This document shows positions 7,617 to 26,438 of a DNA stretch of 64,000 nt, piece by piece (positions within the stretch are counted from its first letter, which is position 1; each line of letters opens with the position of its first letter). The notes beneath the pieces were generated by a model. That model saw only the letters and a program-made list of their open reading frames with translations. It was not told the origin of the DNA and did not search any database. The stretch is from Sulfuritalea hydrogenivorans sk43H (GTDB taxonomy: Bacteria > Pseudomonadota > Gammaproteobacteria > Burkholderiales > Rhodocyclaceae), in the NCBI RefSeq assembly GCF_000828635.1, contig NZ_AP012547.1:2294001-2358000 (forward strand), written 5' to 3'. The position numbers and the translations under genes were made by a program.

Positions 7617-7687
7617 AACGTCGTAGCTGGCTCTCGGCCATTACTTGCGTAATGCAACCCCTAAATCTCAAACCAAGGAAATCTCTC

Positions 7688-8560: not shown

Positions 8561-8801
8561 TCAAGCAGCATACTTAGCCAGCCAATTTCCGAAGCGACAA
8601 GCAGCATGCTTCTCGGAGAGTGAATCGCGCCAGATCACGTGGAGGGCCTTGCGCGGTGTTGGACTCCCTTCCAGCGGGATGGCGACCAGCTGCGTCGTTT
8701 TGACCTCGTCTTCGATGGTGCCGGCAAGTACCAACGACACCCCCATCCCGGCTTTTACCCATTGCTTGACCGCAGCGGTTGAACCCAGGCGCGCGCCGAC
8801 T
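8561..8801 (-). pseudogene. ptxE: 3' part of ptxE (LysR-type regulator), cut off by IS66
   Basis: Reading leftwards from the IS66 end, the frame gives ARLGSTAAVKQWVKAGMGVS and continues to a stop at 8561. This is the C-terminal effector-domain end of a LysR-type regulator. Removing IS66 and one copy of the 8-bp duplication joins it in frame to the part at 11349-11991 (LPVG followed by ARLGS), giving about 291 residues, a normal length for the family. No other damage is visible, so the break comes only from the insertion. Confidence 0.88.
8794..8801. repeat. IS66 target-site duplication, left copy
   Basis: CGCCGACT lies directly outside the left inverted repeat of IS66 and is repeated at 11349-11356. 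An 8-bp duplication is the usual length for the IS66 family. Confidence 0.93.
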
Positions 8802-8875
8802 GTATGCGTCCAGCCCATCCACCTTGCTGACCGAGGGATTGGGCAGATAGTGTCCACGCATTTTGAGGTGGACAC

Positions 8876-9265
8876 ATGCACCCAAAGGTGGCGAAGCCGG
8901 CGGCGCGGCGCACACGCAGGACGCACACGCCGGAGTTCAAGGCGCAAGTCATCGAAGCTTGCCTGCAACCCGGCATATCGGTCGCCGGCGTGGCATTGGC
9001 GAACGGGCTCAACGCCAACTACCTGCGGCGCTGGGTCAAGGAGCATCGCGAGCAAACCGCGAGAAACACGGTCAAGGGCGCGGTTGTCGTGTCGCGCCAT
9101 GTGAAACCGACAGCGCTGGTGCCGGTGACGATAGAGGCGCCTGTCGCCAGGGAGTGCGGTGAAATCCGGATCGACCTTCGTCGCGGCGCGACGGCCGTGC
9201 AGATGGCCTGGCCCGCCACCCACGCCGCGCTGCTCGGCGGCGTACTCAAAGACCTGCTGCGATGA
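8876..9265 (+). CDS. tnpA: IS66 accessory protein TnpA
   Basis: A 129-residue protein with a helix-turn-helix near residues 15-55 (THTPEFKAQVIEACLQPG, then VALANGLNANYLRRWVK), as in IS66 TnpA and IS3 OrfA relatives. It is needed with TnpB for full IS66 transposition. GAGGTGG lies just upstream of the ATG. It overlaps tnpB by 4 bp. Confidence 0.92.
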   Translation: MHPKVAKPAARRTRRTHTPEFKAQVIEACLQPGISVAGVALANGLNANYLRRWVKEHREQTARNTVKGAVVVSRHVKPTALVPVTIEAPVARECGEIRIDLRRGATAVQMAWPATHAALLGGVLKDLLR

Positions 9266-9600
9266 TCCGGCCGGCGCAAGTCTGGCTGGCCGTCGAACCG
9301 GTCGACATGCGCGGCGGCATCGACAGCCTGTCGCAACGCATCCAGAATCTCCTGGGGACATCCCCCTGCGACGGCAGCGCCTACGCCTTTCGCAATCGCC
9401 GATCGACACGGTTGAAGCTCTTGATCTGGGACGGCACCGGCGTCTGGCTGTGCCAGCGACGACTCCATCGCGGCCACTTCGTCTGGCCGACCGCGGACGC
9501 GAGCACCGTCGGTCTCACCGCGCGGCAATGGGAGTGGCTCGTCACCGGTGTCGAATGGCAGCGGCTCGATGCCCCGGCCCCGATCCATTGGCGCGTGTAA
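9262..9600 (+). CDS. tnpB: IS66 accessory protein TnpB (Orf2)
   Basis: A 112-residue protein with the family signature VWLAVEPVDMRGGIDSL near residue 10 and LLIWDGTGVWLCQRRL in the middle. Translation is probably coupled to tnpA through a 4-bp overlap. A 119-bp gap separates it from tnpC. Confidence 0.94.
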   Translation: MIRPAQVWLAVEPVDMRGGIDSLSQRIQNLLGTSPCDGSAYAFRNRRSTRLKLLIWDGTGVWLCQRRLHRGHFVWPTADASTVGLTARQWEWLVTGVEWQRLDAPAPIHWRV

Positions 9601-9719
9601 TGACGAGGTCTTGTCATGCAAACTCCGTGCGCAAAATCATGGCTGGAACGACACAACAAAGCGAGCGGGAACGACCTGTTCATCGGGCTGCGCGCGCTAT
9701 TCGCCGATAGAATCTGGGC

Positions 9720-11303
9720 ATGGATTTGCATGCTGAACTTGAACGCGTCATGGCCGATTCCGCGGTAGCGGACACGGCGGCGCGGGCGATTCGCAAACTG
9801 ATCGAGGACGCGCAGCGCAGCGCGACCGAACAGATCACCCGGCGCACCATCGAACTGCACGCCGCCCAGACCAAGATACAAGCCCTGACGCTGGAACTGG
9901 CGCACCTGCGGCGGATGCGCTTTGGCGTCAAGAGCGAAGCCCTGGATGCCGAGACCCGCGACCTGTTCCAGGAGACCCTGGCCAGTGATGTCGCCGCCGC
10001 CGAAGCGGAACTCGCCAAGCGCCAGGCGGAAGCGGAAGAGACGCCCGTCACCCCGCGTCCCAAGCGCGCACGCGCCGGGCGTCAGACACTGCCCGAGCAT
10101 CTGCCGCGCATCGAACATCACCATGAACCGGAATCCTGCACCTGCGGCCAGTGCGGCCAGGATCTGGTCAAGATCGGTGAGGACATCAGCGAGCAACTCG
10201 ATGTCGAGCCGGCCAAGTTCTTCGTCCATCGCCACATCCGTCCGCAGTACGCCTGCCGTGCCTGCGAGACGGTGAGTGCGGCGCCGATTCCGCCGGCGGT
10301 GATCGACGGCGGCATGGCTGCTGTAGGTTTGCTGGCATGGGTGATCATCGGCAAGTACCTCGATCATCTACCGCTGTACCGGCTGGAACGCATCGCGGCA
10401 CGTGACGGCGTGACGCTCTCCCGCTCGACCCTGGCCGAATGGGTGGGACGTATCGGCGTGGCCCTGCAACCATTGGCCGATCGCTTGACGGCATGCCTGC
10501 TGGAGCGACAGATACTGCATGCCGACGAAACGCCGGTGCAGCAACTGGATCCGGGCAACGGCAAGACCAAGCGGGCCTACCTGTGGGCCTACATGAGCAA
10601 CGTGCTGGAGACCGGGCCGCCCATCGTGGTGTTCGACTACCAGACCAGTCGCTCGGGCGCGCATGCGCGGAATTTCCTGGGGGAGTGGAAAGGCGCGCTG
10701 ATGGTCGATGACTTTGGCGGCTACAAGGCCCTCTTTGGTCAGGAGGTGACCGAGTTGGGTTGCTTCGCCCATGCGCGCCGAAAGTATTTCGATCTGAACG
10801 CGGCGCAGGCCCATCCGATTGCTCAGGAGGCGTTGCTGCGGATTGCGGCGCTGTACGCGATCGAGGCGCGAGGCCGGGAGATGTCGATTGCCGAGCGTAC
10901 AACGCTGCGGCAACGGGAAGCGCTGCCACTGCTGGTGTCGATGCACGAGTGGCTGAGCGCGACGCGCATGACGGTGGCCAACGGCGGTGGCACCGCCAAG
11001 GCGATCGATTACAGCCTGAAGCGCTGGCCGGCGCTCTCCCGCTACGCCATGAGCGGCGCTCTGCCGATCGACAACAACCCGGTTGAGAACGCCATCCGTC
11101 CGATTTGCCTGGGTAAGAAGAACTGGCTCTTCACGGGTTCCGAACGGGCCGGCCAGCGTGCTGCGGCGATCCAGAGTCTGCTGGCGACTGCCACGCTCAA
11201 TGGTCTCGATCCGGCGGCCTGGCTGCGCGGCACGCTGGAGAAACTGCCTACCTGCCTCAACAGCGAGATCGACTCGCTGCTTCCGCTTCGCCAGACCGCA
11301 TAG
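9720..11303 (+). CDS. tnpC: IS66 transposase TnpC
   Basis: The 527-residue transposase has an N-terminal coiled coil (residues 25-65), then a zinc-binding region with CTCGQCG (about residue 140) and QYACRACE. The DDE catalytic domain follows with LHADETPVQ (first Asp), ALMVDDFGGYK (second) and LPIDNNPVENAIRP (Glu region). The C-terminal part, NWLFTGSERAGQRAA, is typical of the family. No frameshift is visible. It starts 119 bp after tnpB. Confidence 0.95.
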   Translation: MDLHAELERVMADSAVADTAARAIRKLIEDAQRSATEQITRRTIELHAAQTKIQALTLELAHLRRMRFGVKSEALDAETRDLFQETLASDVAAAEAELAKRQAEAEETPVTPRPKRARAGRQTLPEHLPRIEHHHEPESCTCGQCGQDLVKIGEDISEQLDVEPAKFFVHRHIRPQYACRACETVSAAPIPPAVIDGGMAAVGLLAWVIIGKYLDHLPLYRLERIAARDGVTLSRSTLAEWVGRIGVALQPLADRLTACLLERQILHADETPVQQLDPGNGKTKRAYLWAYMSNVLETGPPIVVFDYQTSRSGAHARNFLGEWKGALMVDDFGGYKALFGQEVTELGCFAHARRKYFDLNAAQAHPIAQEALLRIAALYAIEARGREMSIAERTTLRQREALPLLVSMHEWLSATRMTVANGGGTAKAIDYSLKRWPALSRYAMSGALPIDNNPVENAIRPICLGKKNWLFTGSERAGQRAAAIQSLLATATLNGLDPAAWLRGTLEKLPTCLNSEIDSLLPLRQTA

Positions 11304-11348
11304 CCGATATCTCGCGTTTCAGTCCAGGTGGATCGGTTGGACGCTTAC

Positions 11349-11356
11349 CGCCGACT
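11349..11356. repeat. IS66 target-site duplication, right copy
   Basis: CGCCGACT directly outside the right IS66 terminus, identical to 8794-8801. Confidence 0.93.
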
Positions 11357-11991
11357 GGCAGTGCCGCCAATTCGACATCCAGGTATTCCGCCAGAAGCCG
11401 CCCCGTACCTGTGCCGGACTCGCCGCCAAGCATCGGGGTCTGGCTCAATTGGGCGCGATTGACGCAGGGCATACGGGCCCACGGGTGATCGGGCGCAACG
11501 ATGGCAACAATATCCTCGGTTCGCCAGACGCGAGAGACGAAACCGGGGCGCTCATCCCACCACTCCATGAGGGCGACGTCAATGTCTCCATTGGCAAGCA
11601 TTTCTGCAACCACCGGGTTTCGGTGTATCTGGAGGTCGACGTTCTCCCCAACCTGATCACCATAGGTTCTCAGGTAAGGCTGCAGGAGGTAGGTGCCAAT
11701 ATTGCTGCTGGCGCCGATGGCGAGGCGACGCTGCCGGAACGTATTGAGGGCATTGGTCGCCAGGCGCTGAAGATTCCCGGCATGGCTTTCGAACTCCCGC
11801 CCTTCCACCGTGAGGCGGCAACCCTGGGGATCCCGCTCGATGAGACGGACGCCGAGAAGCCTCTCCAGCTTCTGCAATTGCTGCGAGATGGCTCCCTGGG
11901 AGATCCCCAGTTCCCGGGCCGCCATGCGAAAGCTTCCCAGCCGGGCGATGGCGAGAAAACTCGCCACCTGATCGAGGTTGAGTGTGCTCAG
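11349..11991 (-). pseudogene. ptxE: 5' part of ptxE (LysR-type regulator of phosphite genes), truncated by IS66
   Basis: It encodes the winged helix-turn-helix (VASFLAIARLGSFRMAAREL, then GISQGAISQQLQKLE) and half of the effector domain, and runs into IS66 after ALPVGG. No ATG is suitable: a CTG at 11991 overlaps the ptxD stop as CTGA, and a GTG lies at 11967. The family pattern NLDQVASF favours the upstream start. Position directly after ptxD matches the ptxABCDE order described in Pseudomonas stutzeri, where ptxE encodes a LysR-type protein. The truncated product keeps its DNA-binding domain but would lose normal effector response. Confidence 0.87.
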
Positions 11992-12995
11992 GCCGCGACC
12001 TTTGTCACCGGGCGATTGACCGCGCCTTGCGGCTCCTGGCCAGCCAAGACTTGCAGGATGTTGGTCGTCGCCTCCATTTCAATTGCGATGCGGACCGAAT
12101 CTACGGCAGAGCCGATATGGGGGGTAAACAGCGTTCGCTCCGAATCCGCCAGCAGACGCGCCGATATCTTCGTCGGCCGATCCGGCCGGGCCCACTCCTC
12201 CAGTTCGAAGACATCCGCCGCATACCCGGCCAGCTTGCCGGCCTCAAGCGCGTCGGCCACCGCCTTTTCGTCCACCACCGACCCGCGACAGGCATTGACC
12301 AGAAAGGCGCCGTGCTTCATGGCGGCAATGGCGCGGGCATCAATCAGGTGCAGCGTGTCCTCCCCGTAGGGAACCATCGGCACCACGTAATCGCTGTCCG
12401 CCAGCAAGCGATCCATGGCTACGCGGCGCAGGCCTAAACGAGCCTCCATGGCGACCGGCAAGGGGAGGGAATCGGCATAGAGCAGCTCCAGTTCATAGCC
12501 CTGCAAGCGGGCGGCGATGGCCTGCCCCACCGCGCCCATGCCGATGATGCCCAGGGTTCGGCCGGTCAAGCCGGCGCCGTAAAGCACCGGCCGCCATCCA
12601 TCGAAGCTGCCGCTGCGGACCAGTTGATCGCCCTGGAGGATCTTGCGGGTCAGCCCGATCAGCAGGCCGATGGTCAGTTCCGCCGTGGGTATGGTCAGCA
12701 GGTCCGGCACGTTGGTGATCCAGATGCCGCGCCGGGTGCAGGCATCGACGTCATAGTTGTCGTAGCCCTTCAAGGCGCAGCCAACCACCCGCAGACGGGG
12801 GCAGGCGGCAAGGAATGCATCATCGACGCTGTCGGTCATGAAAGTCATGATGGCGTCGGCGTCCTTCGCGCGGCTCAGGATTTCCTCGCGAGCGAGCCGC
12901 TCGCGCGTGGTGTTGGGGATGACCGTGCAATGCTGTGCCAACCGGTCGATGACTTCCGGATGCACCCAACTGGTGAGGACGACTTTGGGTTTCAT
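11988..12995 (-). CDS. ptxD: Phosphite dehydrogenase PtxD
   Basis: A 335-residue D-2-hydroxyacid-dehydrogenase-fold enzyme that would oxidise phosphite to phosphate with NAD+. It keeps the segment [21 protein letters not shown] and the NAD-binding GMGAVG at residues 152-157. K76, R237 ([10 protein letters not shown]) and E266 fall at the same numbers as catalytic or binding residues of P. stutzeri PtxD as I recall it. The catalytic His is H293 (TPHIGSAV), one residue later. D175 after the second beta strand, where PtxD has Glu, favours NAD over NADP. The ATG at 12995 has GGAG 6 bases upstream, 11 bases after the ptxC stop. Context with ptxABC strongly supports phosphite over other hydroxyacid substrates. 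Confidence 0.95.
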
Positions 12996-13006
12996 TTTTT
13001 CTCCGT

Positions 13007-13813
13007 TCACTTGAAGCGTTTTCTGAGAGTGCTGCTGAAGGTATCGACCAGAGTGACCATGAGCAGGATCACCAGCAGGATGGCGGACACTTCCTGGTAC
13101 TGCATGATGCGCAGGGAGCCCATCAACTCGAAGCCGATGCCGCCGGCACCGACCATGCCCATTACCGTCGAGGCGCGGAAGTTGTACTCCCAGCGGTAGA
13201 TCGAGATGTCCGCCATCTGCGGCAACACCTGCGGAATGACTCCGTGCAACAGCACCTGCAGCGGCGTGGCGCCCGCGGCACGAGCGGCCTCGATCGGCGC
13301 TTCGTCGGCATGTTCGATGGCTTCGGCAAAGAATTTCCCGATCATGCCCACGGAATGCAGTCCGAGCGCCAGCACGCCGGGCAGGGCGCCGAAACCCACG
13401 GCCGCGACGAAGATGATGCCGAGGATCAACTCGGGAATCGCGCGCAGGGCATTGAGCAGGCCACGCGTGAACTGATAGACCACCGGATGCGGCGTGGTGT
13501 TGCGCGCCGCAAGGAAGGCCAGCGGCAACGAGAGCGACACGGCGAGCGCCGTGCCGGCCACGCTCATGGCCAGGGTGTCGATCAGCGGCCTGAGCCAGTC
13601 GCGCGCATTGGCGAAATCCGGCGGCAGCATCTCACCCAGCAGGCGCAGCAGGCTCGGCCCGCCCTCCGCCAGGCGCTCGCCGTCGAACAGGCCGACATAG
13701 TAGAGGCAGGCAACAATCAGGCAGAGGATTGCCAGCAGGCGCAGTGCGCCGACATTCCAGGCGCGCTGCTGCCGGGCGAGTATGCCGCTGTGGTCGAGCG
13801 TGTCGGTATTCAT
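13007..13813 (-). CDS. ptxC: Phosphite/phosphonate ABC transporter permease PtxC (PhnE-like)
   Basis: A 268-residue inner-membrane permease of the phosphonate (PhnE) type with about six helices. The EAA loop that contacts the ATPase reads [20 protein letters not shown], at about residues 175-195. It would move phosphite delivered by PtxB across the membrane, powered by PtxA. It sits 6 bp after ptxB and 11 bp before ptxD. A general phosphonate permease is the alternative, but the adjacent PtxD argues for phosphite. Confidence 0.92.
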
Positions 13814-13819
13814 CGGCGC

Positions 13820-14677
<858 letters not shown>

Positions 14678-15490
14678 TCAATCCTCGATGATGGCCAGGT
14701 CAAGTGACCTCGGCGGGATGGGAAGGGCGGTGGTGCTTGCTTGCGGAGCAACGCCGGCAGGTGCTTGGTTGTAAATCATTTCCTGCACGCCGGCACTCAG
14801 CGCGTCGGGCGACCCGTCGAACACCACCCGGCCGTGGGCCAGGCCGACGACGCGATCGGCATACTCAATGGCAAGTTCCACCTGGTGCAGGCTGACGACC
14901 GTGGTAATGCCGTCTTCGCGACAGATGCGCTTGAGTTGGGCCAGTACCCGACGCGAACTCGCCGGATCAAGGCTCGCCACCGGTTCGTCGGCCAGCATCA
15001 GGCGCGGCTGCTGGGCCAGGGCGCGCGCGATGCCGACGCGCTGCTGCTGCCCGCCGCTGAGCTTGTCTACGCGGTCGAGCGCCCGCTGCAGCAAGCCGAC
15101 GCGGTCCAGGCACTCCAAGGCGATGCGCTGCTCCGCCGTGGGAAGTGGGAACAGGCTGCGCCAGACGGAGTGGTAGCCAATGCGGCCGAGCAGCACGTTG
15201 GCCAGCGCCGTGTGACGCCCGATCAACTGGTGCTGCTGGAAGATCATGCCGGTCCGGCGCCGATGGGCCTGCAGTGCGGCGCGGCCGTCGATGGCACCGA
15301 TGTCGTCCGCTGTCACGCGGCCGGTCGTTGGCCGCGTCAGGAGATTGAGGCTGCGCAACAGAGTGGACTTGCCGGCGCCGGACGCACCCAGCAATACCGT
15401 GAATTCCCCGCGACCGAAATTTAGCGAGGTTGGCTGGAGGGCCACCAGATCGTCGCGGTAGCGCACGGATAGGTCGGTCAACTGAATCAT
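14678..15490 (-). CDS. ptxA: Phosphite/phosphonate ABC transporter ATPase PtxA (PhnC-like)
   Basis: A 270-residue ATPase with Walker A GASGAGKST (about residues 35-43), a Q-loop (MIFQQHQLIGRHTALANVL), the signature LSGGQQQRVGIARAL and Walker B RLMLADEPVASLD, all intact. It is the first gene of the ptx operon. The ATG at 15490 (MIQLTDLSV) has AAGGGG about 7 bases upstream; an in-frame GTG two codons earlier is less likely. A perfect inverted repeat lies 25 bp upstream and may be the control site. Confidence 0.92.
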   Translation of the reverse strand: MIQLTDLSVRYRDDLVALQPTSLNFGRGEFTVLLGASGAGKSTLLRSLNLLTRPTTGRVTADDIGAIDGRAALQAHRRRTGMIFQQHQLIGRHTALANVLLGRIGYHSVWRSLFPLPTAEQRIALECLDRVGLLQRALDRVDKLSGGQQQRVGIARALAQQPRLMLADEPVASLDPASSRRVLAQLKRICREDGITTVVSLHQVELAIEYADRVVGLAHGRVVFDGSPDALSAGVQEMIYNQAPAGVAPQASTTALPIPPRSLDLAIIED

Positions 15491-15514
15491 CGGCACCCCT
15501 TTTTCGCCGTCATG

Positions 15515-15537
15515 GTTGATTCGTCTATTGAATCAAC
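15515..15537 (-). promoter_or_regulatory. Perfect inverted repeat upstream of ptxA, candidate operator
   Basis: GTTGATTC and GAATCAAC flank a 7-base spacer, 25-47 bp upstream of the ptxA start. The dyad length and spacing fit a dimeric regulator site. PtxE, whose gene is broken, is the obvious candidate; a Pho-box is not evident. The T-N11-A core typical of LysR sites can be placed across it, but binding is inference. Confidence 0.5.
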
Positions 15538-16379
15538 TACGGCATTCAGTTAAGAAATTGCAATCGAAGCGGGGATGGTAACGACCGAGTGTGACCGCGA
15601 TATTTCGCTCAGGCTTCACTTGTGTGAAGTGTTGACAGGGTGGGTCATATATCAGGCCATCGGCCCTAACCGCTATGATTTCCGTACTCAGTCAAAGGCT
15701 TTAACCCATGGCCGTCCGAGGGGCAATGACGACTACAACCGCTTCGACAGAACTGCCGCCAGAGTGCGAGCAATCTCTGGCGGCAGCTTTGTGATCAGAA
15801 AGCGGACGTGGAACTTGATATTGTCATCAGTCGCTTTAGGGCACGGAGTAGGCATTCGCCAGATAGGAAAGCCGCCGTTCGCGACCTCTTCGGGCTGAAC
15901 GGCTGGTAAGCGCAGGATTGCAGCCCGATTGAGCGCGTTAGGCCAACGGCCGTTATGGCCGACCAACAGCCCGACAACCAATTGGGCTGAACGGCAGGTA
16001 TTTGATGAGTTACCCGCCGTTCAAACGCATCTGTTTTCGGAGGCCGCTACGGCTGTTGATGGCCGGGTCCGGTCTGCGACCCGAACCAAATTCTACCTGC
16101 TGGAACGGCGGGTTGACTCAATAAGCCGTCGCCCATGGCTTCATCATTTCAAGCCCGCCACCGCAACAGATCAGCAAGGATCCCAACGAGACTCGTTACT
16201 CCAAAACACACGGCCAGGGGCAAGTTGCCCCCATTCCGAATCGAAGTCGTCCATATTTACGGACTTACCGTAGCACTTCAACCGCCGAAACCGTCTACAC
16301 AGGGTACGCGAGGGCGTGATCCAGAATGCGTGACTTGGTGATAACGACCGCGACCCGTCGGAACTGGCTCCCTCTCCTG
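15538..16379. other. Gene-free stretch between ptxA and the element-borne radA
   Basis: About 840 bp without a credible gene. Short open frames occur on both strands (15575-15898 plus, 15733-15981 minus) but none shows a ribosome binding site or a family I know. The stretch holds a strong stem-loop at 15753-15786 and several GCCGTT/AACGGC words in opposite orientation, as at 15989-16020. It looks like decayed or regulatory sequence. Confidence 0.5.
15753..15786. repeat. 12-bp perfect stem-loop upstream of the ptx operon
   Basis: CTGCCGCCAGAG and CTCTGGCGGCAG form a perfect 12-bp stem around a 10-nt loop, followed on the plus strand by CTTTGT. It could be a terminator insulating ptx from neighbouring transcription, or a protein site. 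Its function is unknown. Confidence 0.5.
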
Positions 16380-17762
16380 TCATCTGTAGGCGTTGACCGC
16401 GTCTTCAACCCTTCCAACTGCGATGATCTCCAAGCCTGGTATCTCATGTTTTGGCGCATTGGCCTTGGGCACGATGGCGTGGGTAAACCCGAGTTTGGCG
16501 GCTTCCTTGAGACGTTCCTGGCCGCGCGGCGCGGGGCGCACCTCACCAGCCAAGCCCACCTCACCAAAGGCAACCAACTTGCCCGGCAACGGGCAGTTGC
16601 GCAGACTTGAAACGATCGCCAGCAGGACGGCGAGGTCGGCTGCGGGCTCGGTGATCTTGACGCCGCCGACGGCATTGACGAAGACATCCTGATCGGCGCA
16701 AACCACGCCAGCATGCCGATGCAAGACGGCAAGCAGCATAGCTAGCCGGTTCTGCTCCAAGCCAACCGAAAGCCGGCGCGGATTTCCGTTGGCGCCGTCG
16801 ACCAGCGCCTGAATTTCCACCAAAAGTGGCCGGGTGCCTTCCTGAGTCACCATCACGCAACTACCTGACACCGGCTTGTGATGTTGCGAAAGAAACAGCG
16901 CCGAAGGATTGTTCACCTCACGTAACCCCGTCTGTGTCATTGCGAACACGCCTAGCTCGTTGACGGCACCATAGCGGTTCTTGAAGGCGCGAATCACCCG
17001 GAAACTTGTCTGGGGGTCACCCTCGAAATACAACACGGTATCCACCATGTGTTCCAAGACTCGGGGCCCTGCAAGTACGTTCTCCTTTGTCGAGTGTCCC
17101 ACTAAGCACAACGTCATGTTGCCGCCTTTAGCCATGCGCGTAAGTTGCGCAGCACACTCTCTCACCTGTGCCACTGAACCCGGTGCGGATGTGAGTTGTC
17201 CCGACCAGAGCGTTTGTATTGAGTCAATCACTACTACGTCTGGTTTGCACTGCGAGATGGCCGCCTGAATTTTTTCCAACTGAATTTCGGGTAACAAACG
17301 CATGTCGTTCCCGTCCAACGACAAGCGCTTGGCGCGAAGAGCGATCTGTTGTGCCGACTCTTCACCGCTCACATATAAGGTGCTGCGCTGCATTGATAAA
17401 TGCGCTAGAACCTGCAGCAACAATGTTGACTTGCCAATGCCCGGATCGCCGCCAATGAGCACTACTCCGCCTGGCACCAGTCCACCACCCAAGACGCGGT
17501 CAAATTCCGCGCTACCTGTCGGCGTTCTCTGCACTTCTGCTGTTCCGACCTCCGAGAGCATCTGCAGCTTTCCGCCAGCTGCCCATGAGTTGAAACGATT
17601 ACTGCTCTTCGTATCAGTACCTGCCACTGATTCAGTTAGAGAGTTCCATGCATTGCAATGCGGACACTGCCCCTGCCACTTCGGCGTCTGGCCGCCGCAT
17701 TCGTTGCATGAATATATTGTGTGTGACTTCACTCCCAAACTCCCTCGATTCTTGGACTTCAT
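16380..17762 (-). CDS. radA: Complete RadA DNA repair and branch-migration ATPase carried by the element
   Basis: A full-length, 460-residue RadA. It has the zinc finger C19-x2-C22...C33-x2-C36, Walker A GGDPGIGKST (residues 104-113), Walker B VVVID near 178, the RadA motif as KNRYG (261-265; usually KNRFG) and the Lon-like C-terminal domain. Its C-terminal half is nearly identical to the broken host copy over long stretches (for example GKLVAFGEVGLAGE). It differs exactly where the host gene was hit: LCLVGHSTKEN replaces CVILVGHVTKEG, and the core TGATCCT is absent from its DNA. It can thus supply RadA to a cell whose own gene was split. It has its own upstream region with hairpins after the recombinase operon. 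Confidence 0.95.
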   Translation of the reverse strand: MKSKNRGSLGVKSHTIYSCNECGGQTPKWQGQCPHCNAWNSLTESVAGTDTKSSNRFNSWAAGGKLQMLSEVGTAEVQRTPTGSAEFDRVLGGGLVPGGVVLIGGDPGIGKSTLLLQVLAHLSMQRSTLYVSGEESAQQIALRAKRLSLDGNDMRLLPEIQLEKIQAAISQCKPDVVVIDSIQTLWSGQLTSAPGSVAQVRECAAQLTRMAKGGNMTLCLVGHSTKENVLAGPRVLEHMVDTVLYFEGDPQTSFRVIRAFKNRYGAVNELGVFAMTQTGLREVNNPSALFLSQHHKPVSGSCVMVTQEGTRPLLVEIQALVDGANGNPRRLSVGLEQNRLAMLLAVLHRHAGVVCADQDVFVNAVGGVKITEPAADLAVLLAIVSSLRNCPLPGKLVAFGEVGLAGEVRPAPRGQERLKEAAKLGFTHAIVPKANAPKHEIPGLEIIAVGRVEDAVNAYR

Positions 17763-17785
17763 CTCACCGTCCTAGCGTCAACACC

Positions 17786-17802
17786 TTGGGGCGCTGCCCC
17801 AA
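17786..17802. repeat. Short hairpin just upstream of the element radA
   Basis: TTGGGGC and GCCCCAA pair around a 3-nt loop, 24 bp upstream of the radA start. With the larger hairpin at 17825-17857 it may separate the recombinase/helicase operon from radA. Confidence 0.45.
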
Positions 17803-17824
17803 ACCCCGCGCTCGCCGCGTGGCC

Positions 17825-17857
17825 AGGGGTGGGGTTATAAAACCCAACCCCACCCCT
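17825..17857 (-). terminator. Stable stem-loop between the helicase gene and radA, possible terminator
   Basis: AGGGGTGGGGTT and AACCCCACCCCT pair perfectly over 12 bp around a 9-nt loop, about 120 bp after the helicase stop. A T-run does not follow on the minus strand, so intrinsic termination is only plausible; it could also slow transcription into radA. Confidence 0.45.
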
Positions 17858-17979
17858 AGCCACTGAGCATTGGTCGCTACGGTCTGTAAAGGGGCTTTCG
17901 CGGCATAAACGGCAACCTCCCCGCTGCGCGGGTCCCCTCCATTTATTCCACGATCCCCTTGACAGCCCTTCGCTCATAC

Positions 17980-20202
17980 CTATGCCTCCTCAAGTAAAGA
18001 AGGCAAGGTGATATGCCGCCGCGCCGATGAGGCTGCCGCTCGGATTGCCGCCAGCGTCGCTTGTTCGTCGCCGATCAACACAACTTGGTCAATACCTCGG
18101 GTGACTGCGGTATAGATCAGTGTTTGGTCGAGCAAGCGTGACTCGCGGATGGGCACAATTATCCGCTTGAACTGGCTGCCCTGGCTCTTATGGACGGTGA
18201 TCGCGTAGCTGTGGCTCACCGCCAACATCTGGGTGCTATTCAATTCATACTCGACGCCCTCGAATTCCGCAACACAGCAAAGATCATCCGCATCAGTCAC
18301 CGGTAGCGCCCGAACTATCCGGCCAAGCGAACCGTTGCGCAGGCCGAGTTGATAGTCGTTCTGGGTATAGATGACCAGATCGCCCACCTTGATCGGTTCC
18401 CGGTCCGTTGTCCCGGCGCCCACTACCCCATGCTCTGGATCGAAGCAGAACACATGGTCGGCTCCGGTTTGGTACTTGGCACGGAACGCCGCATTGAGGT
18501 TCTTGACGCCTCCTACCCGGGAATTGGTTACGGACAAGATCTGGACGCTGTAGTCCCGTCCGGTGCCTCCCACTTCGGCGTAAATCCGTTGCGTCGTGGC
18601 TTCGATATCCTTCGCTAGGCACGGCACGAACGACACGCCGGTATGAGGCTTTCCGGCGTATGTCGCCCAGACAGGTGCCTCATGGTTGCGAATGGCTGCC
18701 GCCACCTGCGGAATGCCGCTGGTCACGCTCTGGCGCTTGACCACCTTGAGTTCAGTCTGCGGGATGGAGTCAATGCAAGCCAAGGCATGCAGGACAAGTC
18801 CGGGGCCAATCGGGGGCAACTGCGATGGGTCCCCAACGAGGATCAGGCGCACGCCATCGGGCAGATGCCGCAGTAGGCGATACATCAGGATGACATCGAC
18901 CATGGATACCTCGTCTACGACGACGACGGTGCCAAGCTCGATGCCGCCGGGCTCAACCTTGGTGAGAAACCCGGCGATGGTCATACTCTCCCGGCCGGTG
19001 GCCTCGGCCATGCGCTGCGCCGCTCGACCGGCTAAGGCCAGTTGGTAGATCGGGATGCCGGGCTGAATTTGCTCCAGCGCGGCATACAGGGCTTTCAGGA
19101 CCGTCGTCTTGCCCGTCCCTGCCCCGCCGAGAATCAGACTTAGATGGGCTGCGGCGCACGTCAGGACAGCTTGCCGCTGCTCGGCGGTTAGGCTAATGCC
19201 ATGACTCGCTTCGTAGCCCGACAGAACATCCTCGAGCGACGCTGGATTGCTGTCCAACTGGGTGAACAACCCAGCCTGACCAGCACCATTCTCGCCACGG
19301 ATCATTGCACGTAGTCGCTCGGCCACATACCGCTCAATGAAATGGGCGCCCGTAGCCTGGTAAAGGTCGTCGACCACCTGATACTGACTATTGGACCGGC
19401 TTTGCTCAATGGCCTTGGTCGCCAGTTCTGGCGAATCGAGCAACCGAACGACAATGGCACGCGCATCGCGGGACGGTAGGCAGGTATGCCCCTGGCTCAG
19501 GCCCCGGTAAAGGGCCTCTTCAATAGCCGAGGCGAGGCGGCGGGGATCGTCTGCCTGGATGCCGAAACGCTTGCGAGCAATGTCGTCGACCGTTAACCAT
19601 CGCGCCTCGAAGCTGATCAGGGCGTAGGGATTGGCCTCTATCTTCGCCTGGGCTTGATCCTGGTAGAACGCAATGACGCTGGCGCCAATCTTCTGCGGGA
19701 TGCCAAGACGATCAAGCCACAGCAGGGTGCTGGCGACATTAAACTTCTCGAATGCCCGGCAAAGCATGTCAGCCGACTGCTCGTTCAGTATCTCGCAAAG
19801 CGCTGGGATGTCGCGATCCTTGACGACATCGACCAGTTCCGACCCGAAGCGCTGGTACAGCTTCGCGGCCTTTACGTGGCCGATACCGACGCACTCGGGA
19901 TTCGTGGATATCCAATTGATGACGTTGCGCCCGGCGGGACGGATGAGTTCCGCCTTCCGTGCGGCAATCTGGGTTTCATTGATCTTGAAGCCATTAGGCG
20001 CAATAACCTCCCGAACCGACGTTGTACCCTCAATAAGCCATTGCTGGCCCCGGTCGACCAGATGTCCATCCGGAATCAACTGGTAGTCGGCCACGACCAC
20101 ATAGCGCTCGCCTGCATCGGTGCTGCCAGCGAAGATGGCGCCACCACACCGGCCACGGCTGCGGATGGAGGCGACGCGAATCTCGGCCGAGATTTCGTTC
20201 AT
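17980..20202 (-). CDS. RecD2-like superfamily 1 DNA helicase of the recombinase module
   Basis: A protein of about 740 residues with an N-terminal OB-like region and a helix-hairpin-helix area (about residues 95-200, with NPECVGIGHVKAAKLYQRFG). The SF1B helicase core has Walker A GGAGTGKTT (about 360), VVVDEVSM (about 430), VGDPSQLPPIG and the C-terminal UvrD_C_2 motif HKSQGSQFKRIIVP followed by IYTAVTRG. Such enzymes unwind DNA 5' to 3'. The ATG at 20202 overlaps the previous stop as ATGA, indicating coupled translation. Being the last gene of the recombinase operon suggests it helps excision, integration or copying of the element, or repair after mobilisation; this is inference. Confidence 0.85.
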   Translation of the reverse strand: MNEISAEIRVASIRSRGRCGGAIFAGSTDAGERYVVVADYQLIPDGHLVDRGQQWLIEGTTSVREVIAPNGFKINETQIAARKAELIRPAGRNVINWISTNPECVGIGHVKAAKLYQRFGSELVDVVKDRDIPALCEILNEQSADMLCRAFEKFNVASTLLWLDRLGIPQKIGASVIAFYQDQAQAKIEANPYALISFEARWLTVDDIARKRFGIQADDPRRLASAIEEALYRGLSQGHTCLPSRDARAIVVRLLDSPELATKAIEQSRSNSQYQVVDDLYQATGAHFIERYVAERLRAMIRGENGAGQAGLFTQLDSNPASLEDVLSGYEASHGISLTAEQRQAVLTCAAAHLSLILGGAGTGKTTVLKALYAALEQIQPGIPIYQLALAGRAAQRMAEATGRESMTIAGFLTKVEPGGIELGTVVVVDEVSMVDVILMYRLLRHLPDGVRLILVGDPSQLPPIGPGLVLHALACIDSIPQTELKVVKRQSVTSGIPQVAAAIRNHEAPVWATYAGKPHTGVSFVPCLAKDIEATTQRIYAEVGGTGRDYSVQILSVTNSRVGGVKNLNAAFRAKYQTGADHVFCFDPEHGVVGAGTTDREPIKVGDLVIYTQNDYQLGLRNGSLGRIVRALPVTDADDLCCVAEFEGVEYELNSTQMLAVSHSYAITVHKSQGSQFKRIIVPIRESRLLDQTLIYTAVTRGIDQVVLIGDEQATLAAIRAAASSARRHITLPSLLEEA

Positions 20203-20660
20203 GGAGGAAGCATTCGCCCTGTGCGGCACAGATGCTCGTCAAGGTGTCTGTACCGCGCCAGTTGCTCGCGTAGGTCTCCGATCTCGGCACGCAGGGCGGC
20301 ATTCTGCTCTTCGAGCGCCTTCACCCGCTGTTCAGCCTTGCCTTTGGCTGCCATAACCCGACGTTCCAACGCCAAGGCAGTCGGGTCGTCCTTAGCGGCA
20401 GTGGAGGCGTCAGTGCCCCCGATAAGACCTCGCTCACGTAATGACGTCTCCAAGGTCTCAAGAGCAGCCTTTACGGCGGGGTTCTGGCGGACAACGGAGA
20501 GAGCAAATCCGCATTCATTGGCGATTTCTGACCGATTGAGCTTCCCGGCACGGGTGTAGTCCTGCCAGTCCCCAGCCGCATCGCGCTCGGCCACCCAGTC
20601 GCCAAACTTCTTAACGTTGGCAACTGCCAGTTGCTGCCCGGATCGATTCAATTGAATCAT
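20199..20660 (-). CDS. Small helix-turn-helix and coiled-coil protein of the recombinase module
   Basis: This 153-residue protein has a helix-turn-helix candidate around residues 40-75 (LNRSEIANECGFALSVVRQN). A C-terminal coiled coil (about residues 105-145, with VKALEEQNAALRAEIGDLRE) follows. The start overlaps the previous stop by ATGA, and the stop overlaps the helicase start in the same way. I know no exact family. By layout it resembles the small coiled-coil partners found beside multi-recombinase systems such as TnpC of Tn554. A role in positioning recombinases at the ends is conceivable. Confidence 0.75.
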   Translation of the reverse strand: MIQLNRSGQQLAVANVKKFGDWVAERDAAGDWQDYTRAGKLNRSEIANECGFALSVVRQNPAVKAALETLETSLRERGLIGGTDASTAAKDDPTALALERRVMAAKGKAEQRVKALEEQNAALRAEIGDLREQLARYRHLDEHLCRTGRMLPP

Positions 20661-21376
20661 GTACGCTTGCCTTCCTTCGCGGGTGCAAGCAGGGATTGCT
20701 GGACGGGTAATCCGAGAATCTTCCTGATGGCGGTTGCAAAGCCTGGCAAGAAGACAAAGCGATCCCGTTCATCAACCACCTCTCCAGTATCTCCCAGCCG
20801 CCACATCCTCCGTCCAAGATTCGTCGGATCCAGCGCGGCCTCAAGTGCCTTGTGCTCGCTGTCCGTCAATTGCGCCGCCATTTCGATCACAGCCACGTTC
20901 CTGGAACCCTTGGCAATTTCGGCGCCCAAGGGCCGCATATCCACAACCACCTGAGTCTTTGACTTAAGCAAGTTAAGTTCCGCCTTGAGCTTATCGCGCT
21001 CGACCAGGGCGATCTGACACAGGCTGCGCACCGCAGGGTCTTCGATCTTCTTCAGGAAGTCGTATCTCTCCGGGAACGTCTTTTTCTGCGGCATCTTGTT
21101 CGACTTGGGGCCGTTGTAAGCCGCCCAAGCGTCAATTATATTGGCATAATCCTCGGATTGCTTGTTGTAGATCGCACGCGCCTTGAAGAGCCCATGACTC
21201 TCTGCGATGCGCGACATATTGGCCTGGCTCAAGTCGCGAGCGCCCTGGCTGTGACGCGCATATTCGGTCGCGCACAATTCATGCAGCTTGCGCAGCTTTT
21301 CGTCCTTGTCGCGGCGATTGCCCTTGTCGAGCAACGCCTTCAACACCTCGTCAGGATGCACAGCACATGTCGTCAT
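20657..21376 (-). CDS. Third protein of the recombinase trio, GmtX-like
   Basis: A 239-residue soluble protein whose N-terminal 85 residues (HPDEVLKALLDKGNRRDKDE, then LSQANMSRIAESHGLFKARA) look like a helix-turn-helix domain. A central coiled-coil stretch (ERDKLKAELNLLKSK) and a C-terminal domain follow. The ATG at 21376 has GGAGG 9 bases upstream and starts inside the 3' end of the 1175-codon gene (26-bp overlap). Its position directly after the large recombinase-like gene is why I compare it with GmtX of Gamma-Mobile-Trio islands, from memory and unverified. Confidence 0.7.
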   Translation of the reverse strand: MTTCAVHPDEVLKALLDKGNRRDKDEKLRKLHELCATEYARHSQGARDLSQANMSRIAESHGLFKARAIYNKQSEDYANIIDAWAAYNGPKSNKMPQKKTFPERYDFLKKIEDPAVRSLCQIALVERDKLKAELNLLKSKTQVVVDMRPLGAEIAKGSRNVAVIEMAAQLTDSEHKALEAALDPTNLGRRMWRLGDTGEVVDERDRFVFLPGFATAIRKILGLPVQQSLLAPAKEGKRT

Positions 21377-24300
21377 CGTTGCGTACCTCCGTGTTGACCA
21401 TACGCAGATAAACCGGTTTGTTGTCACTAGGCCCGGCCTGCGGCAGCAGGTTATTTAACTTGATCCCAAGGGTCTTTTCGATGCTTGCTTGGCGATCCAG
21501 AATCTCTACAACATGACGGCGCGCGAGGATCGGATTGTCCGGATTGATATGATTCTCGAGGGCGCGCATGAAACCGTTGGCGGCAGTCATCTTCTCGTGT
21601 TCGCTCATACGTGCAAACGCCATCGGCTCCCTCTCACGCTCGAATGCGCGGTCAAGAATCTGGGCAAACTCAAAAATCGCCGTGCCAGCTTCAAGGTCGG
21701 GATAGAACTCGAGATCGGCGATCATCCCGGCTAGAACAAGCAATTCTGAATCAGTCTCCTCAACAACGGTCTGCAGTGTAAGGAGGTCGCCCTGCGCCAC
21801 CAGCGCGGTCGGACCGTCGGGATTATTCGGCAATGCATTGATGCGCTCGATCGTCCGATACAGGTTAACGATGTCCAGCGTCAGTTCGTTATACTTTTGC
21901 GCGGAGGCCTCCAGCATACGCTCAGCGGCACGCAGATCAGAGGCACGATTGAAGGGCTGGCTGCTCGATTCAGTGCGTGCCTTTTCCTTCAGTATGTCGT
22001 TACGCGCGCGCTCGCCAGCAGCAACCTGTTCTCCGGCCTTATGGAGATGGTATTGCCGATTATTGAATGTTGCGCAAAGCCCTTTCAAATGCTCCGTTCC
22101 TGCGACCTTCCAACGACAGCGCGCGCAATTCCGAACTCCTCCGGGGGTTTGACCGAATGTCCATTTCTTAACGTCATTCCCAGCTTTCTTAAGCACTGGC
22201 CCTCCATTGTGGCAGCCGGGAACACTGGCGTTATCAGGCACGGGGCCCGTGTTACCACCCGCTAGGCAGATCCCATCGTGCAGGTAAAGCCAACCCAACG
22301 GATTGCGGTCGGAAGGATTTACGGGCAGCACCGTGGCCGGGTCCGCTGCGTTGAAAACGACACGATCTCTCAGTTGCTCCATCCTGAGGCCAGCCAGATC
22401 GCGAGTCAGGTTTTCATCCTTTTTCGCATCCAGACGTTCCACCGCGCCTAATACGGCATCCTGAATATGCTTCAGGCCCGGCTTGGTGTAATAGATGGTC
22501 ATGATGAAGCGTGAATGGCCGACGATCTTCATCATCATTTCAGGCGGCACGTTGCCATCCAGGATCATGTGCGTAATAAGGCTGACGCGCGTAGCGTGCG
22601 GCGAACTGGCTGGCTGCCCGCGTTCATTTATCAGCCGGATCGGACTGCCATCGGGGTGGGTGACGTCTTCAGTTTGGAGAATCTCTTCGTAAGCAGCGAG
22701 AAGCTTCCGCCAGGCCTTCTTATGCATCCCGCTTGTTAATGGCCACTCGGCTTCGGTCGGCGTTTCGGGCGTGCGAAAGAGGAAGGCCGTATCGGGATAT
22801 TCATTGCTCTTCTCTTCGGCCTTGACTGTGAGAGCTCTCCTAGCAGGGAGGTCGCGCCAAGCCGTCAAACGAGAGATTGGGTTGTACTTCTGCTGCCAGT
22901 CTCGCAGTTTAGCGAACCAATAATACGGGTCGTCAGCTAAGTCGTTCATACGTGGCCAAGGGCACACCATGCCTTTAGCACCCGAACGCCGCCCGATGTC
23001 ATTGGTCTTGTTGGAATTCAGGAATATGGCGACGGTCGCCCCCATGGTTTCGTCTTCGGGGTCTGGGCGACGGAATACGCCCTGTCGCCTGGGATTGCGC
23101 GCCGTGCCGGTCCTCAGCGAGCCCTTATTGGGAATAAATTTGCCGCCTTGCCAGATGAAGGTGTCTGCCTCCCCACTGTCGACCATACGGATCTGTCCGA
23201 CGCGTGATGGAATCTGGAGCTGGACGAGCACCGCAACCCACCGCACCGGGCTCCACATTTCAAGCACCGGGTCCTGCCCTACTCGTTGCCGCAATCGCCA
23301 TACGCAATCGGGATCGTTCTTGTCGATGTGGCTTTCCTCGACCTCGAACCAATCGGGACCTTCATTCGAGCCGTCCACGGAAAGTTTTCCCTGTAGGCAA
23401 CGAACCCAGCACCAGTCCCTGAAATTCGGTCCTAGAGCGATCCTTCGCCTTAGGTCGCTTATCATCCAGTAGGGTAGGACGACTTTGTCGGATTCCGTAT
23501 TTGCTTTCGCTACGCCGCTCGCGAATAGTTCTGGAACCGGGTTGCGAAACATAGGTAAGGTAATCGGCTCGCCCGAACTCGTATCTGCAAATTCAGGCGT
23601 TCTGAGTACCCACCGCAGGAACACGTGAATGCAATTGTTAATCCGAATGCCATGCTCAGCTTGCTGGTGCGAACACGCAGTTGCATAAAAATCCTGCTGG
23701 ATGTTGCTACGCAGTAGTAGGTCGGCGGGCTTCTTTGGCAACTTCCGCGCAACCAAATAGCGCTCGATGAAGCCAGTAATCGCTGAGATCTTTCCGGAGA
23801 GATTCGTTTTTTCACCGTTCATCCATTCGGCGACAAATACTCTCCACTCTTCAAGCTCCGGATCAAGACGTGTGATCCAGAGAAAATCCTTGTCTTCTGA
23901 TTTTGCCTTCAAAACTTGTGGCGGCTTAGCGAGTCCCCCGGCAACTGCAGCGTCGAACCATTTCTTGACGATCGCCCTGGATGCTTTGAACTCCACAGCT
24001 ACTTCCTGAACGGTCTTACCGCTCTCAACAGCTCTGATGGCCGCGAGGCGTACAGCGTCGGAATATCGTTGCTTCTTAGTGGTCTTGTGTCCGATTACAG
24101 ACCGTACGATTCGAGTGGGAACGCCCAGGTCGCTTGCAATCTGAACATATTTCCTCCCCTCCTGAAACGCTTTCATGATCCTCTTGTACTGTTCCGGCGT
24201 CAGGTCGGCATCGACCGACGATGCGAGGTAGCAAGCGTATGAGGTGTCGAGATTCAGTTCGCGCGCTACGTCCGTGGGCTTCTCGCCATTGCGAACACGG

Positions 24301-24878
24301 CGCATCAATTCTTCCTTCGTATCTCGGGGAATGTGTTCAACCTTCTTGACATGCTGGGTCCAATTGTTGACGGTGCTGACGCTCACGCCGATCCCTGAGG
24401 CCACCGCTTTTTTTGATTCCCCGTTCTCAACCCGACGAACAGCTTGTTCTCGGACATCTTCATCAACACTTCGCTCTCTTGTCTTTGGTGTCAGGTACTG
24501 TACCTTCCCGATAGTGAGGCCCATTGCCTTTGCGATACTCACCTTGCTTTCGCCGGCTTCTAAGCGACGCATAATAATTTCGGTGAGTCTTTCATCTGGA
24601 CGTTTCTCAGTCTGAATGTGCTTGGTCCACTTGCCGACGACGCTTGCACTGATCCCCATCGCTGCGGCTACTCGCTTTCTCGATTCCCCTTGCTCGACCT
24701 GACGAATAGCTTCTTTCTTGATCTGCTCGTCGATTTGCGCTTCTCTTATCTTTGGCGTTAAGCGCTGCACCATGTCGTATGGAAGGGCCATTGCTTTCGC
24801 AATAGTTGCCTTGCTCTCACCAGATCTAAACCGGCGATCAACCTCGCCACGAACCTTCTCTGGGATTCTTACTCCCAT
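21351..24878 (-). CDS. Giant tyrosine-recombinase-like protein with tandem helix-turn-helix repeats, GmtZ/VPA1269-like
   Basis: 1175 residues. Residues 11-308 hold about seven helix-turn-helix repeats of roughly 33 residues spaced 33-46 apart. Examples are RRFRSGESKATIAKAM, RQVEQGESRKRVAAAMGIS and RRLEAGESKVSIAKAMGL. Repeats 1/3 end in LTPK and 2/4 in WTKH/WTQH, so a two-repeat unit was duplicated. Residues 540-800 resemble a tyrosine recombinase: R559 or R564 region, H761-x-x-R764, G787-H788 and Y797/Y798. Cysteines at about 870, 889, 918, 921 and 935 could bind metal. The C-terminus is helical. The start overlaps the upstream recombinase stop by 10 bp. I recall VPA1269-family/GmtZ proteins as similar in place and size; the catalytic role is inferred. 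Confidence 0.82.
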   Translation of the reverse strand: MGVRIPEKVRGEVDRRFRSGESKATIAKAMALPYDMVQRLTPKIREAQIDEQIKKEAIRQVEQGESRKRVAAAMGISASVVGKWTKHIQTEKRPDERLTEIIMRRLEAGESKVSIAKAMGLTIGKVQYLTPKTRERSVDEDVREQAVRRVENGESKKAVASGIGVSVSTVNNWTQHVKKVEHIPRDTKEELMRRVRNGEKPTDVARELNLDTSYACYLASSVDADLTPEQYKRIMKAFQEGRKYVQIASDLGVPTRIVRSVIGHKTTKKQRYSDAVRLAAIRAVESGKTVQEVAVEFKASRAIVKKWFDAAVAGGLAKPPQVLKAKSEDKDFLWITRLDPELEEWRVFVAEWMNGEKTNLSGKISAITGFIERYLVARKLPKKPADLLLRSNIQQDFYATACSHQQAEHGIRINNCIHVFLRWVLRTPEFADTSSGEPITLPMFRNPVPELFASGVAKANTESDKVVLPYWMISDLRRRIALGPNFRDWCWVRCLQGKLSVDGSNEGPDWFEVEESHIDKNDPDCVWRLRQRVGQDPVLEMWSPVRWVAVLVQLQIPSRVGQIRMVDSGEADTFIWQGGKFIPNKGSLRTGTARNPRRQGVFRRPDPEDETMGATVAIFLNSNKTNDIGRRSGAKGMVCPWPRMNDLADDPYYWFAKLRDWQQKYNPISRLTAWRDLPARRALTVKAEEKSNEYPDTAFLFRTPETPTEAEWPLTSGMHKKAWRKLLAAYEEILQTEDVTHPDGSPIRLINERGQPASSPHATRVSLITHMILDGNVPPEMMMKIVGHSRFIMTIYYTKPGLKHIQDAVLGAVERLDAKKDENLTRDLAGLRMEQLRDRVVFNAADPATVLPVNPSDRNPLGWLYLHDGICLAGGNTGPVPDNASVPGCHNGGPVLKKAGNDVKKWTFGQTPGGVRNCARCRWKVAGTEHLKGLCATFNNRQYHLHKAGEQVAAGERARNDILKEKARTESSSQPFNRASDLRAAERMLEASAQKYNELTLDIVNLYRTIERINALPNNPDGPTALVAQGDLLTLQTVVEETDSELLVLAGMIADLEFYPDLEAGTAIFEFAQILDRAFEREREPMAFARMSEHEKMTAANGFMRALENHINPDNPILARRHVVEILDRQASIEKTLGIKLNNLLPQAGPSDNKPVYLRMVNTEVRNDDDMCCAS

Positions 24879-26281
24879 ATTGATCCCAACCTCAAATCGG
24901 CAGTTCGCCCGATGAGGCCTGTATTTGACGGCCCTTCCGAATTCTCTTCAGCAAGTTTCCTGGCCCCTGCCTGCAAGGCGGTGGCGGCCTCATGCAATTC
25001 AGGCTGCGTATAGACTTTCTGACTCATAGGTGAGCAATGGTGCATGATTCTTTGGATGATCACCGGATCGATCCCGCCACGCCGCGCGCGTTGTGCATAG
25101 GCGTGGCGTGAGCCGTGGGCTGTTGTACCGTGCGCCTTGCCATACACCAACCCGATGCGCTCCACAGCTGATTGGAGCGCCTTGAGGTAGGAACCAATGC
25201 AGTAGACTCCGCCGACGGACGCTCTGTCCAAATTGATGAAGGCAAAAGGATGATGCCGCTCAATAGAGGCCACCTGCTCCAGATAGCGGCTCCAGATTTG
25301 CATGAACCAGCGACCATAGAGCTCTCTTGGAAACCAATGCACATTCATGAACCATCGCTCATCGAGTGCGGGATCTTTCCAACCAGCATGCATCCTCCCT
25401 CGAATAAGATTGCGTGGTGTCATGCCGAATTCGGAGGCCAAGTATTCGGCTCGGGTGCCGCGCTGTCCAGAGAGGTTTTCCCAGTGGTTTGGGGCAACGC
25501 CCAGGCTGGGATGATGAACCGCCACAAAGGCAATCAGCGGATCATCCCAATACGGTTGAACGTCAGCCATATACAAGTGAAACGGTTCGCTGACTCGCAG
25601 ACCACCACCAAATAGCAGCAAAGTAATCAGCATGCCTCGATAGTCACATTGGCCCGAGACACGAAAGCCCTTGAAGAGCAGTTCTTCAAACCGATCCTCC
25701 GGGAACATGGGCGGGCGCTTCGGGAATACCTTGGGCAAGCGCTCGCCCCGAGTAACCCTGCTTCTCCGCCCGGAGGGATTATCCGACCAGACATGCCCCA
25801 AGAACGCTTTACTCCGGCGGTAGTGGTACGCATGCAGATCAATTCTCTGGTCATACACCCCGCCCTTGTAAACAGGGTTGAACTTGGCAGCGCGCGGCCC
25901 TTCTCCCCGCGCCAGCCAGTCAAAGAATTCGCTGAGCTGGGTGATCATGTAGTTGGCGTCCTGCCCCTCGAATGGCGCCCAATACAGCCCGCTCGAGTCT
26001 TCAAAGGTATTTCTGTCAATCGTGCCGAGCTTCAATGCATTGGCGAAATTTCTGAAGAAGCGCCATTCCTCCTCACCAGGCATGGCATTCACTTCCAGAT
26101 ACTCTAGGAACAGCTTTACTGCTCGCAGCAGCTTGTTTTGCCATGACTGACTGCGCCGCATGCTGAGGCAATAGTCAATCAATGAGCGCAACGGGCCTTC
26201 CGCCGTCATCAGCACCGGGATTTGCATCGATGCCCCTGTGTTGTCAGAGACAATCTTTGCATTAACTGTGGCAAATGGCAT
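24869..26281 (-). CDS. Tyrosine recombinase/integrase of the element, GmtY-like
   Basis: A 470-residue site-specific recombinase. The catalytic set is visible: R229 in FGGGLRVSE, H389-x-x-R392 in AHGSRHAYAQR, H415 in IMHHCSP and nucleophile Y424 in QKVYTQPE. It is the first gene of the five-gene module and starts 158 bp inside the right junction. Its upstream region contains the repeated TATGTATTAT words, so the promoter and recombinase sites probably overlap and expression may be self-controlled. It is expected to recombine the AGGATCA cores. The GmtY comparison rests on gene order and recall. Confidence 0.88.
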   Translation of the reverse strand: MPFATVNAKIVSDNTGASMQIPVLMTAEGPLRSLIDYCLSMRRSQSWQNKLLRAVKLFLEYLEVNAMPGEEEWRFFRNFANALKLGTIDRNTFEDSSGLYWAPFEGQDANYMITQLSEFFDWLARGEGPRAAKFNPVYKGGVYDQRIDLHAYHYRRSKAFLGHVWSDNPSGRRSRVTRGERLPKVFPKRPPMFPEDRFEELLFKGFRVSGQCDYRGMLITLLLFGGGLRVSEPFHLYMADVQPYWDDPLIAFVAVHHPSLGVAPNHWENLSGQRGTRAEYLASEFGMTPRNLIRGRMHAGWKDPALDERWFMNVHWFPRELYGRWFMQIWSRYLEQVASIERHHPFAFINLDRASVGGVYCIGSYLKALQSAVERIGLVYGKAHGTTAHGSRHAYAQRARRGGIDPVIIQRIMHHCSPMSQKVYTQPELHEAATALQAGARKLAEENSEGPSNTGLIGRTADLRLGSIWE

Positions 26282-26296
26282 TTGCTAACTCAATCC

Positions 26297-26420: not shown

Positions 26421-26438
26421 CGTCGGCCGGGGTTAATA

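Follow-up and report, generated by a model that had tools for sequence, protein, structure and literature searches.

A gamma-mobile-trio island that splits radA of Sulfuritalea hydrogenivorans and carries a complete, divergent radA gene

The chromosomal radA gene of Sulfuritalea hydrogenivorans sk43H is cut by an island of 21.7 kb that we analyzed within a 64,000-nt stretch of DNA (hereafter called the window, to which all coordinates refer) that is part of one 3.80-Mb contig. The split host gene, the core repeats, and the island genes from GmtY to radA are located on the minus strand. The N-terminal half of host radA, which starts with MAKAKTQ, occupies 26439..27073 and aligns in tblastn with 56% identity to residues 7–221 of the RadA protein encoded inside the island. 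The displaced C-terminal half is found at 4029..4768 and aligns with 81% identity to residues 218–460. Both junctions carry the 7-bp core repeat TGATCCT, at 26439..26445 on the GmtY end of the element and at 4762..4768 on its far end, where the repeat is included in the C-terminal host half. Counted with one core copy, the element delimited by these junctions spans 4769..26445 (21,677 bp). Joining the island flanks yields one open radA frame, indicating that the host gene has not decayed, and the insertion point corresponds to about codon 219, where the host reads TCVILVGH (ACC TGC GTG ATC CTC GTC). The 7-mer alone does not define this site, since the window contains 22 copies of TGATCCT compared to a mean of 6.67 in shuffled sequences. 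Of 30 further genomes searched from the genus, 28 contain a 24-bp host site centered on the core with at most 3 mismatches (20 of these 28 with the exact 7-bp core). The own genome contains none, and the 28 genomes therefore have an unbroken site. Indirect signs of mobility are the precise repeats, the open joined host frame, and the uninterrupted sites across most of the genus.

At the end adjoining the N-terminal half of host radA, the island encodes the tyrosine recombinase GmtY (470 aa; 24869..26281; NF040693, 464.6 bits with a cut-off of 340), followed by the integrase GmtZ (1175 aa; 21351..24878; NF047926, 701.5 bits, cut-off 600; also matching Integrase_2, PF13009, and helix-turn-helix [HTH] families) and by GmtX (256 aa; 20657..21427; NF040692, 218.3 bits, cut-off 40). 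Because GmtX, GmtY, and GmtZ all exceed their NCBIfam cut-offs, the island is, by its protein family matches, a gamma-mobile-trio (GMT) element, and plasmid relatives are annotated as gmtY. Next come a VPA1267 family protein (153 aa; 20199..20660; NF040697, 128.4 bits, cut-off 90), a RecD2-like SF1 helicase (749 aa; 17980..20229; TIGR01448, 370.9 bits, which is below the cut-off of 500), and a complete radA gene (460 aa; 16380..17762) that is separated from the far end of the element by 11.6 kb. No promoter-like match was found ahead of this cargo radA; the single match on its strand falls within the coding sequence, and one such match agrees with chance (1 found versus 0.6 expected). No tRNA gene was found in the 64,000 nt of the window. 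Further into the island, 11988–15496 holds an apparent operon for phosphite uptake and oxidation with a binding protein, a permease, an ATPase, and a dehydrogenase that matches the solved phosphite dehydrogenase 6ih2 with 491.7 bits. An IS66 transposase (9720–11303) is situated between this operon and a LysR-type ORF that matches only part of the substrate-binding domain.

A preliminary description of this DNA had presented the cargo RadA as full length and closely similar to the host copy. The former was confirmed, as the 460-aa ORF scores 627.7 bits with TIGR00416 (cut-off 403) and 436.6 bits with the solved RadA 8rxc and contains the C4 zinc motif, the Walker A motif GDPGIGKST, and the KNR motif. 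The latter was overstated, with identities over the gene of 0.661 for nucleotides and 0.716 for amino acids, the latter distributed as 81% in the C-terminal half and 56% in the N-terminal half. The KNR motif has the form KNRYG instead of the commoner KNRFG, a variant shared by 9 of 38 RadA sequences compared (7 of 36 when both cargo proteins described here are left aside), and the activity of the cargo RadA is for this reason an assumption. Six RadA matches were obtained in the own genome, of which the three strong ones are the full-length cargo protein and the two host halves and the others have E-values of 2e-5 or worse, so that the cargo gene is the sole intact radA found in this genome.

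Relatives of the island were sought with GmtY, which matched 8 of 199 family genomes at E 1e-3 and 5 of 399 order genomes at E 1e-30 (the own genome included in each case), while an alignment search of public genome contigs gave 29 loci. Genomes G017, G031, and G628 provide the same contigs as loci L066, L067, and L068, respectively. The sequence available per locus comprised 4.1 to 11.4 kb behind the GmtY start, and a RadA gene deeper inside an element would therefore be missed. Six members including the window form a near clade with GmtY identities of about 64% or more, and they target three kinds of genes: radA in two cases (the window at about codon 219 and L066 at about codon 33, in cargo numbering), umuC in two cases (L067 and L071, with near-identical GmtY in different hosts), and a DUF2461 gene in two cases (L068 and L069). 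Pfam names for the target pieces are one of UmuC type, one of UmuD type, and one of DUF2461 type. The elements with near-identical GmtY come from a Candidatus Accumulibacter MAG (L067) and a Burkholderiaceae MAG (L071) and occupy roughly corresponding positions in umuC, a likeness that by sequence suggests either recent transfer or a binning error.

The survey for co-carried radA that had been proposed along with the preliminary description thus returned one further island, L066, which sits in radA and carries a full RadA, with 69% identity in GmtY and 92% amino acid identity in the cargo RadA compared to the window. Within the 4.1 to 11.4 kb covered behind GmtY, L066 is the only one of the 29 loci with a RadA gene. 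It is again the only one in which the junction on the GmtY side contains part of radA (25 residues), and none was detected in the other 28 at E 0.1 when up to 1 kb before GmtY was searched at all 29 loci (flanks of less than 400 bp in L071, L081, and L084). As for elements of the near clade in other targets, neither the two umuC-member genomes nor the two DUF2461-member genomes showed a second full target copy, with a UmuC query devoid of the N-terminal part, a DUF2461 query of 104 aa, and genomes that are MAGs; the L071 genome gave one weak match of 28% to the UmuC query. G031 and G628 have one RadA match each at E 1e-180 among the matches listed, which makes a second RadA in them unlikely.

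In a tree of 38 RadAs, the cargo proteins of the window and L066 form one clade with support of 100/100 and a stem of 0.61, and dN/dS is 0.082 between the two cargo radA genes and 0.170 between the two host genes. By these measures, the cargo RadA is a separate lineage under purifying selection. Among the matches listed by E-value across 395 family genomes, full-length RadA proteins after that of G017 show 61% to 74% identity, and none of 368 other genomes of the class matches at E 1e-217. Plasmid RadA was rejected as a near source with a best match of only 70.9% on an Azonexus plasmid, for which an incomplete gene table has no annotated Gmt gene within 12 kb of RadA. Phage RadA was likewise rejected, with 30 of 31 phage records below 60%, and scans of viral contigs for relatives of GmtY or of the cargo RadA found none.

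The family genomes also include 34 of 395 without a RadA match at E 1e-180, of which 18 were examined, with G069 and G666 (two matches each) added. Eight of these 18 have no RadA match at E 1e-20, and the radA pieces in G164, G183, G587, G607, G609, and G646 stop at contig ends. In the draft genomes G164, G183, G587, G607, and G609, contigs end within radA near codons 79–117 (L099–L106), and an additional radA piece of G609 begins at 388. G069, from the same genus as the window, has two full-length radA genes on separate contigs (L107/L108).

Comparison of the two radA islands reveals a mosaic. Between the window and L066, synonymous differences are saturated in GmtY (pS 0.80) and GmtZ (pS 0.79), while dS amounts to 0.46 in GmtX, 0.26 in VPA1267, 0.30 in RecD, and 0.70 in RadA, with nucleotide identities of 0.861, 0.906, 0.906, and 0.846, respectively. 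The tree path connecting the two islands is accordingly 0.56 for GmtY and 1.07 for GmtZ versus 0.099 for RecD. In a sliding comparison, nucleotide identity climbs at the GmtZ/GmtX boundary (around 21,425) and ranges from 0.81 to 0.94 up to around 17,000. The point where a blastn block begins had raised the suspicion of a sharp crossover midway through GmtZ, which was discarded because the sliding comparison places the main change at this boundary. Over the final third of cargo radA (around 16380–16850), identity drops to 0.79 and 0.73 compared to about 0.88 in the remainder of the gene, as if this part had recombined with another radA, and beyond radA blastn found no similarity between the two islands at E 1e-3. 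RadA is conserved together with GmtX-VPA1267-RecD while GmtY-GmtZ are saturated and can therefore be seen as part of one backbone block, so that two strongly diverged targeting modules are combined with one RadA lineage. The window and L066 group together in GmtY with support of 86/89 and in 87% of bootstrap trees, compared to 26% for GmtZ. Their GmtY proteins may thus be sisters, and the second radA site could consequently be a shift within one lineage of radA-targeting elements. With only two elements and a block of common descent, the pairing of carried RadA and targeted radA is not a large independent sample.

About 300 aa at the N-terminus of the GmtZ of the window form an HTH array (encoded at around 23900–24878) with about 7 repeats when counted by eye, and about 5 repeats were counted in the same way in GmtZ of L066 to L069 and L071. 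Judged by length, the array is missing from 13 of the 14 other GmtZ proteins measured (857–910 aa versus 1085–1175 aa in the near clade), the fourteenth being L091 with 1129 aa. The array is also the fastest-changing part of GmtZ, with an identity of 0.70 between L068 and L069, which share the same target, versus 0.86 and 0.94 elsewhere in the protein. It is a candidate reader of the target site.

Taken together, we consider it probable, at roughly 70%, that a GMT island lands in a conserved coding stretch of radA and that its backbone includes, behind GmtX-VPA1267-RecD, a complete and divergent radA, with the consequence that the host gene is replaced. GmtY and GmtZ would recognize the conserved radA stretch, the circular form would integrate and thereby cut the host gene, and the element RadA would take over from the broken host RadA while its own gene would escape recognition by the recombinase. 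The replacement RadA would in this way pay for landing in a conserved gene. Since the same is seen in a related island at a different position of radA, the replacement looks like part of the island lifestyle. The earlier proposal that a complete gene is carried as compensation is in part supported by the full-length gene, its purifying selection, and the second case, but not in its part on adaptive recoding (see below). RadA is often dispensable, and such a rescue may thus matter little to the host.

More tentatively, the two radA islands could stand for a class of GMT islands that make conserved genes usable as landing pads by means of a divergent whole replacement gene. The targeting module of GmtY and the HTH-array GmtZ would be exchanged while the target gene is kept, with the array reading the new site and the repair gene of the host being swapped for that of the element. 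We find this wider reading conceivable rather than likely; under it, the replacement gene would fix which gene is safe to hit, because loyalty to the target persists across exchange of the module.

An alternative that we regard as unlikely, though the most serious one, is that the carried RadA primarily serves the element, for example in strand exchange or branch migration together with the RecD-like helicase during entry or excision, and that loss of host radA serves to prevent hexamers composed of both versions. The position of RadA directly behind RecD, its conservation similar to that of this block, and its distinct lineage all agree with such a role. Furthermore, a locus with a different and distantly related recombinase set (L124, G008:C35) also has VPA1267 beside a RecD-like helicase, and this pair hence seems to travel between island types as a tool of the element. 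However, VPA1267-RecD had no visible RadA neighbor in L067, L068, L069, G008:C35, L086, and L087 (the sequences of L071 and G032:C64 stop shortly behind RecD). Beyond this, rescue of the host function and takeover by the element predict the same anatomy, and sequence cannot separate them.

Considerably less probable is that coincidence alone placed the RadA block, as an ordinary passenger, aboard elements that hit radA. The small number of cases, two islands with a block of shared descent, leaves some room for such a coincidence, but two strongly diverged GmtY-GmtZ pairs would then have arrived at two different codons of a single gene that, by simple arithmetic, makes up about 0.03% of a 4-Mb genome. 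Additionally, the sequence covered at 28 of the 29 surveyed loci showed no RadA gene and no part of radA at the junction next to GmtY.

The preliminary description had further proposed that the carried gene is recoded at its own attachment site as a means of self-immunity. The cargo gene indeed lacks the core: it reads MTLCLVGH at the site (ATG ACG TTG TGC TTA GTG) and has TGTGCTT in place of the host TGATCCT, with 4 of 7 bases alike. Yet 88.9% of all aligned 7-bp segments of host and cargo are not fully identical, and 41.2% match as poorly as the core or worse, so that the missing core is explained by general divergence. Alignment over about 60 bp, as had been suggested, showed a flank that is mildly unusual around a core difference that is ordinary, with 29 bases alike over 61 bp (the lowest 4.1% of host-cargo segments) and 9 alike over 21 bp (the lowest 10.4%). 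The host 24-bp site was not found in the cargo gene at up to 3 mismatches, and a 31-bp host site reaches at best 16 of 31 matches there, which does not exceed what shuffled DNA gives (17.3 on average for the best match across 200 shuffles). This missing site may still protect the cargo copy from the putative recognition by the recombinase.

The sister island serves as a control. At each of the two sites, the cargo genes are almost identical in sequence, although either element inserts at just one. L066 has junction cores of TGCCC and TGTCC, and of the 6 core bases at the site that L066 uses, its cargo gene retains 5 (or 4, should TGCCC be the original) within surroundings of ordinary identity, as 51.8% of segments over 21 bp and 25.9% over 61 bp are equally poor or poorer. 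Despite the 3 of 7 differing core bases, the poor flank, and the lack of the site at 3 mismatches, recoding of the core under selection for self-immunity is hardly credible, and we reject it based on the segment comparison and the sister control. Any immunity of the cargo copy is best seen, from these alignments, as a by-product of deep divergence instead of a change made for this purpose.

To limit the harm of their integration, mobile elements usually insert at the ends of genes or restore the terminal part of their target. Whole-gene replacement that persists through a change of the targeting module would solve this problem in another way, with the unusual consequence that a repair gene of the host is exchanged for the version of the element. 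The window and L066 form a natural pair of GMT recombinases with different sites in one gene, which makes target choice in this family directly testable. Neither a radA landing site nor whole-gene replacement of radA appeared among the results of literature searches restricted to open-license papers, which did not include the original GMT description.

Like other GMT islands, the element in the window has GmtX, GmtY, and GmtZ above the curated cut-offs together with a VPA1267 family protein and variable cargo, but it differs from them by the HTH array of about 300 aa on GmtZ and by its position inside a conserved gene of which it carries a whole copy. GInt islands (ginABCD; PMC5385486) resemble it, according to the accessible part of that report, in that several tyrosine recombinases sit at one end ahead of the cargo, that the repeats are short and imperfect, that conserved genes are the targets, and that they work in a similar way. 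There, the authors consider it improbable that insertion inactivates the target completely, and the same part of the text does not mention a full target copy. GInt islands have three integrases plus GinD in one operon. In the window, two recombinases plus GmtX and VPA1267 are seen, and its proteins match the Gmt models, which are those that were scanned. Integrative and mobilizable elements (IMEs) in rumA also use an internal site in a conserved gene that is broken in the process (PMC5704250). In the portion of that study available to us, genes broken by IMEs with internal sites are called dispensable and no replacement gene is described, whereas the window island carries one. Finally, islands in tRNA and tmRNA genes are alike in that integration is paired with repair of the target function, and the accessible text of the Islander publication (PMC4383910) has them restore the tDNA by a fragment in attP. 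The two halves of host radA, by contrast, stay apart and run into element sequence, and what the window island brings along is an entire gene located 11.6 kb into the element.
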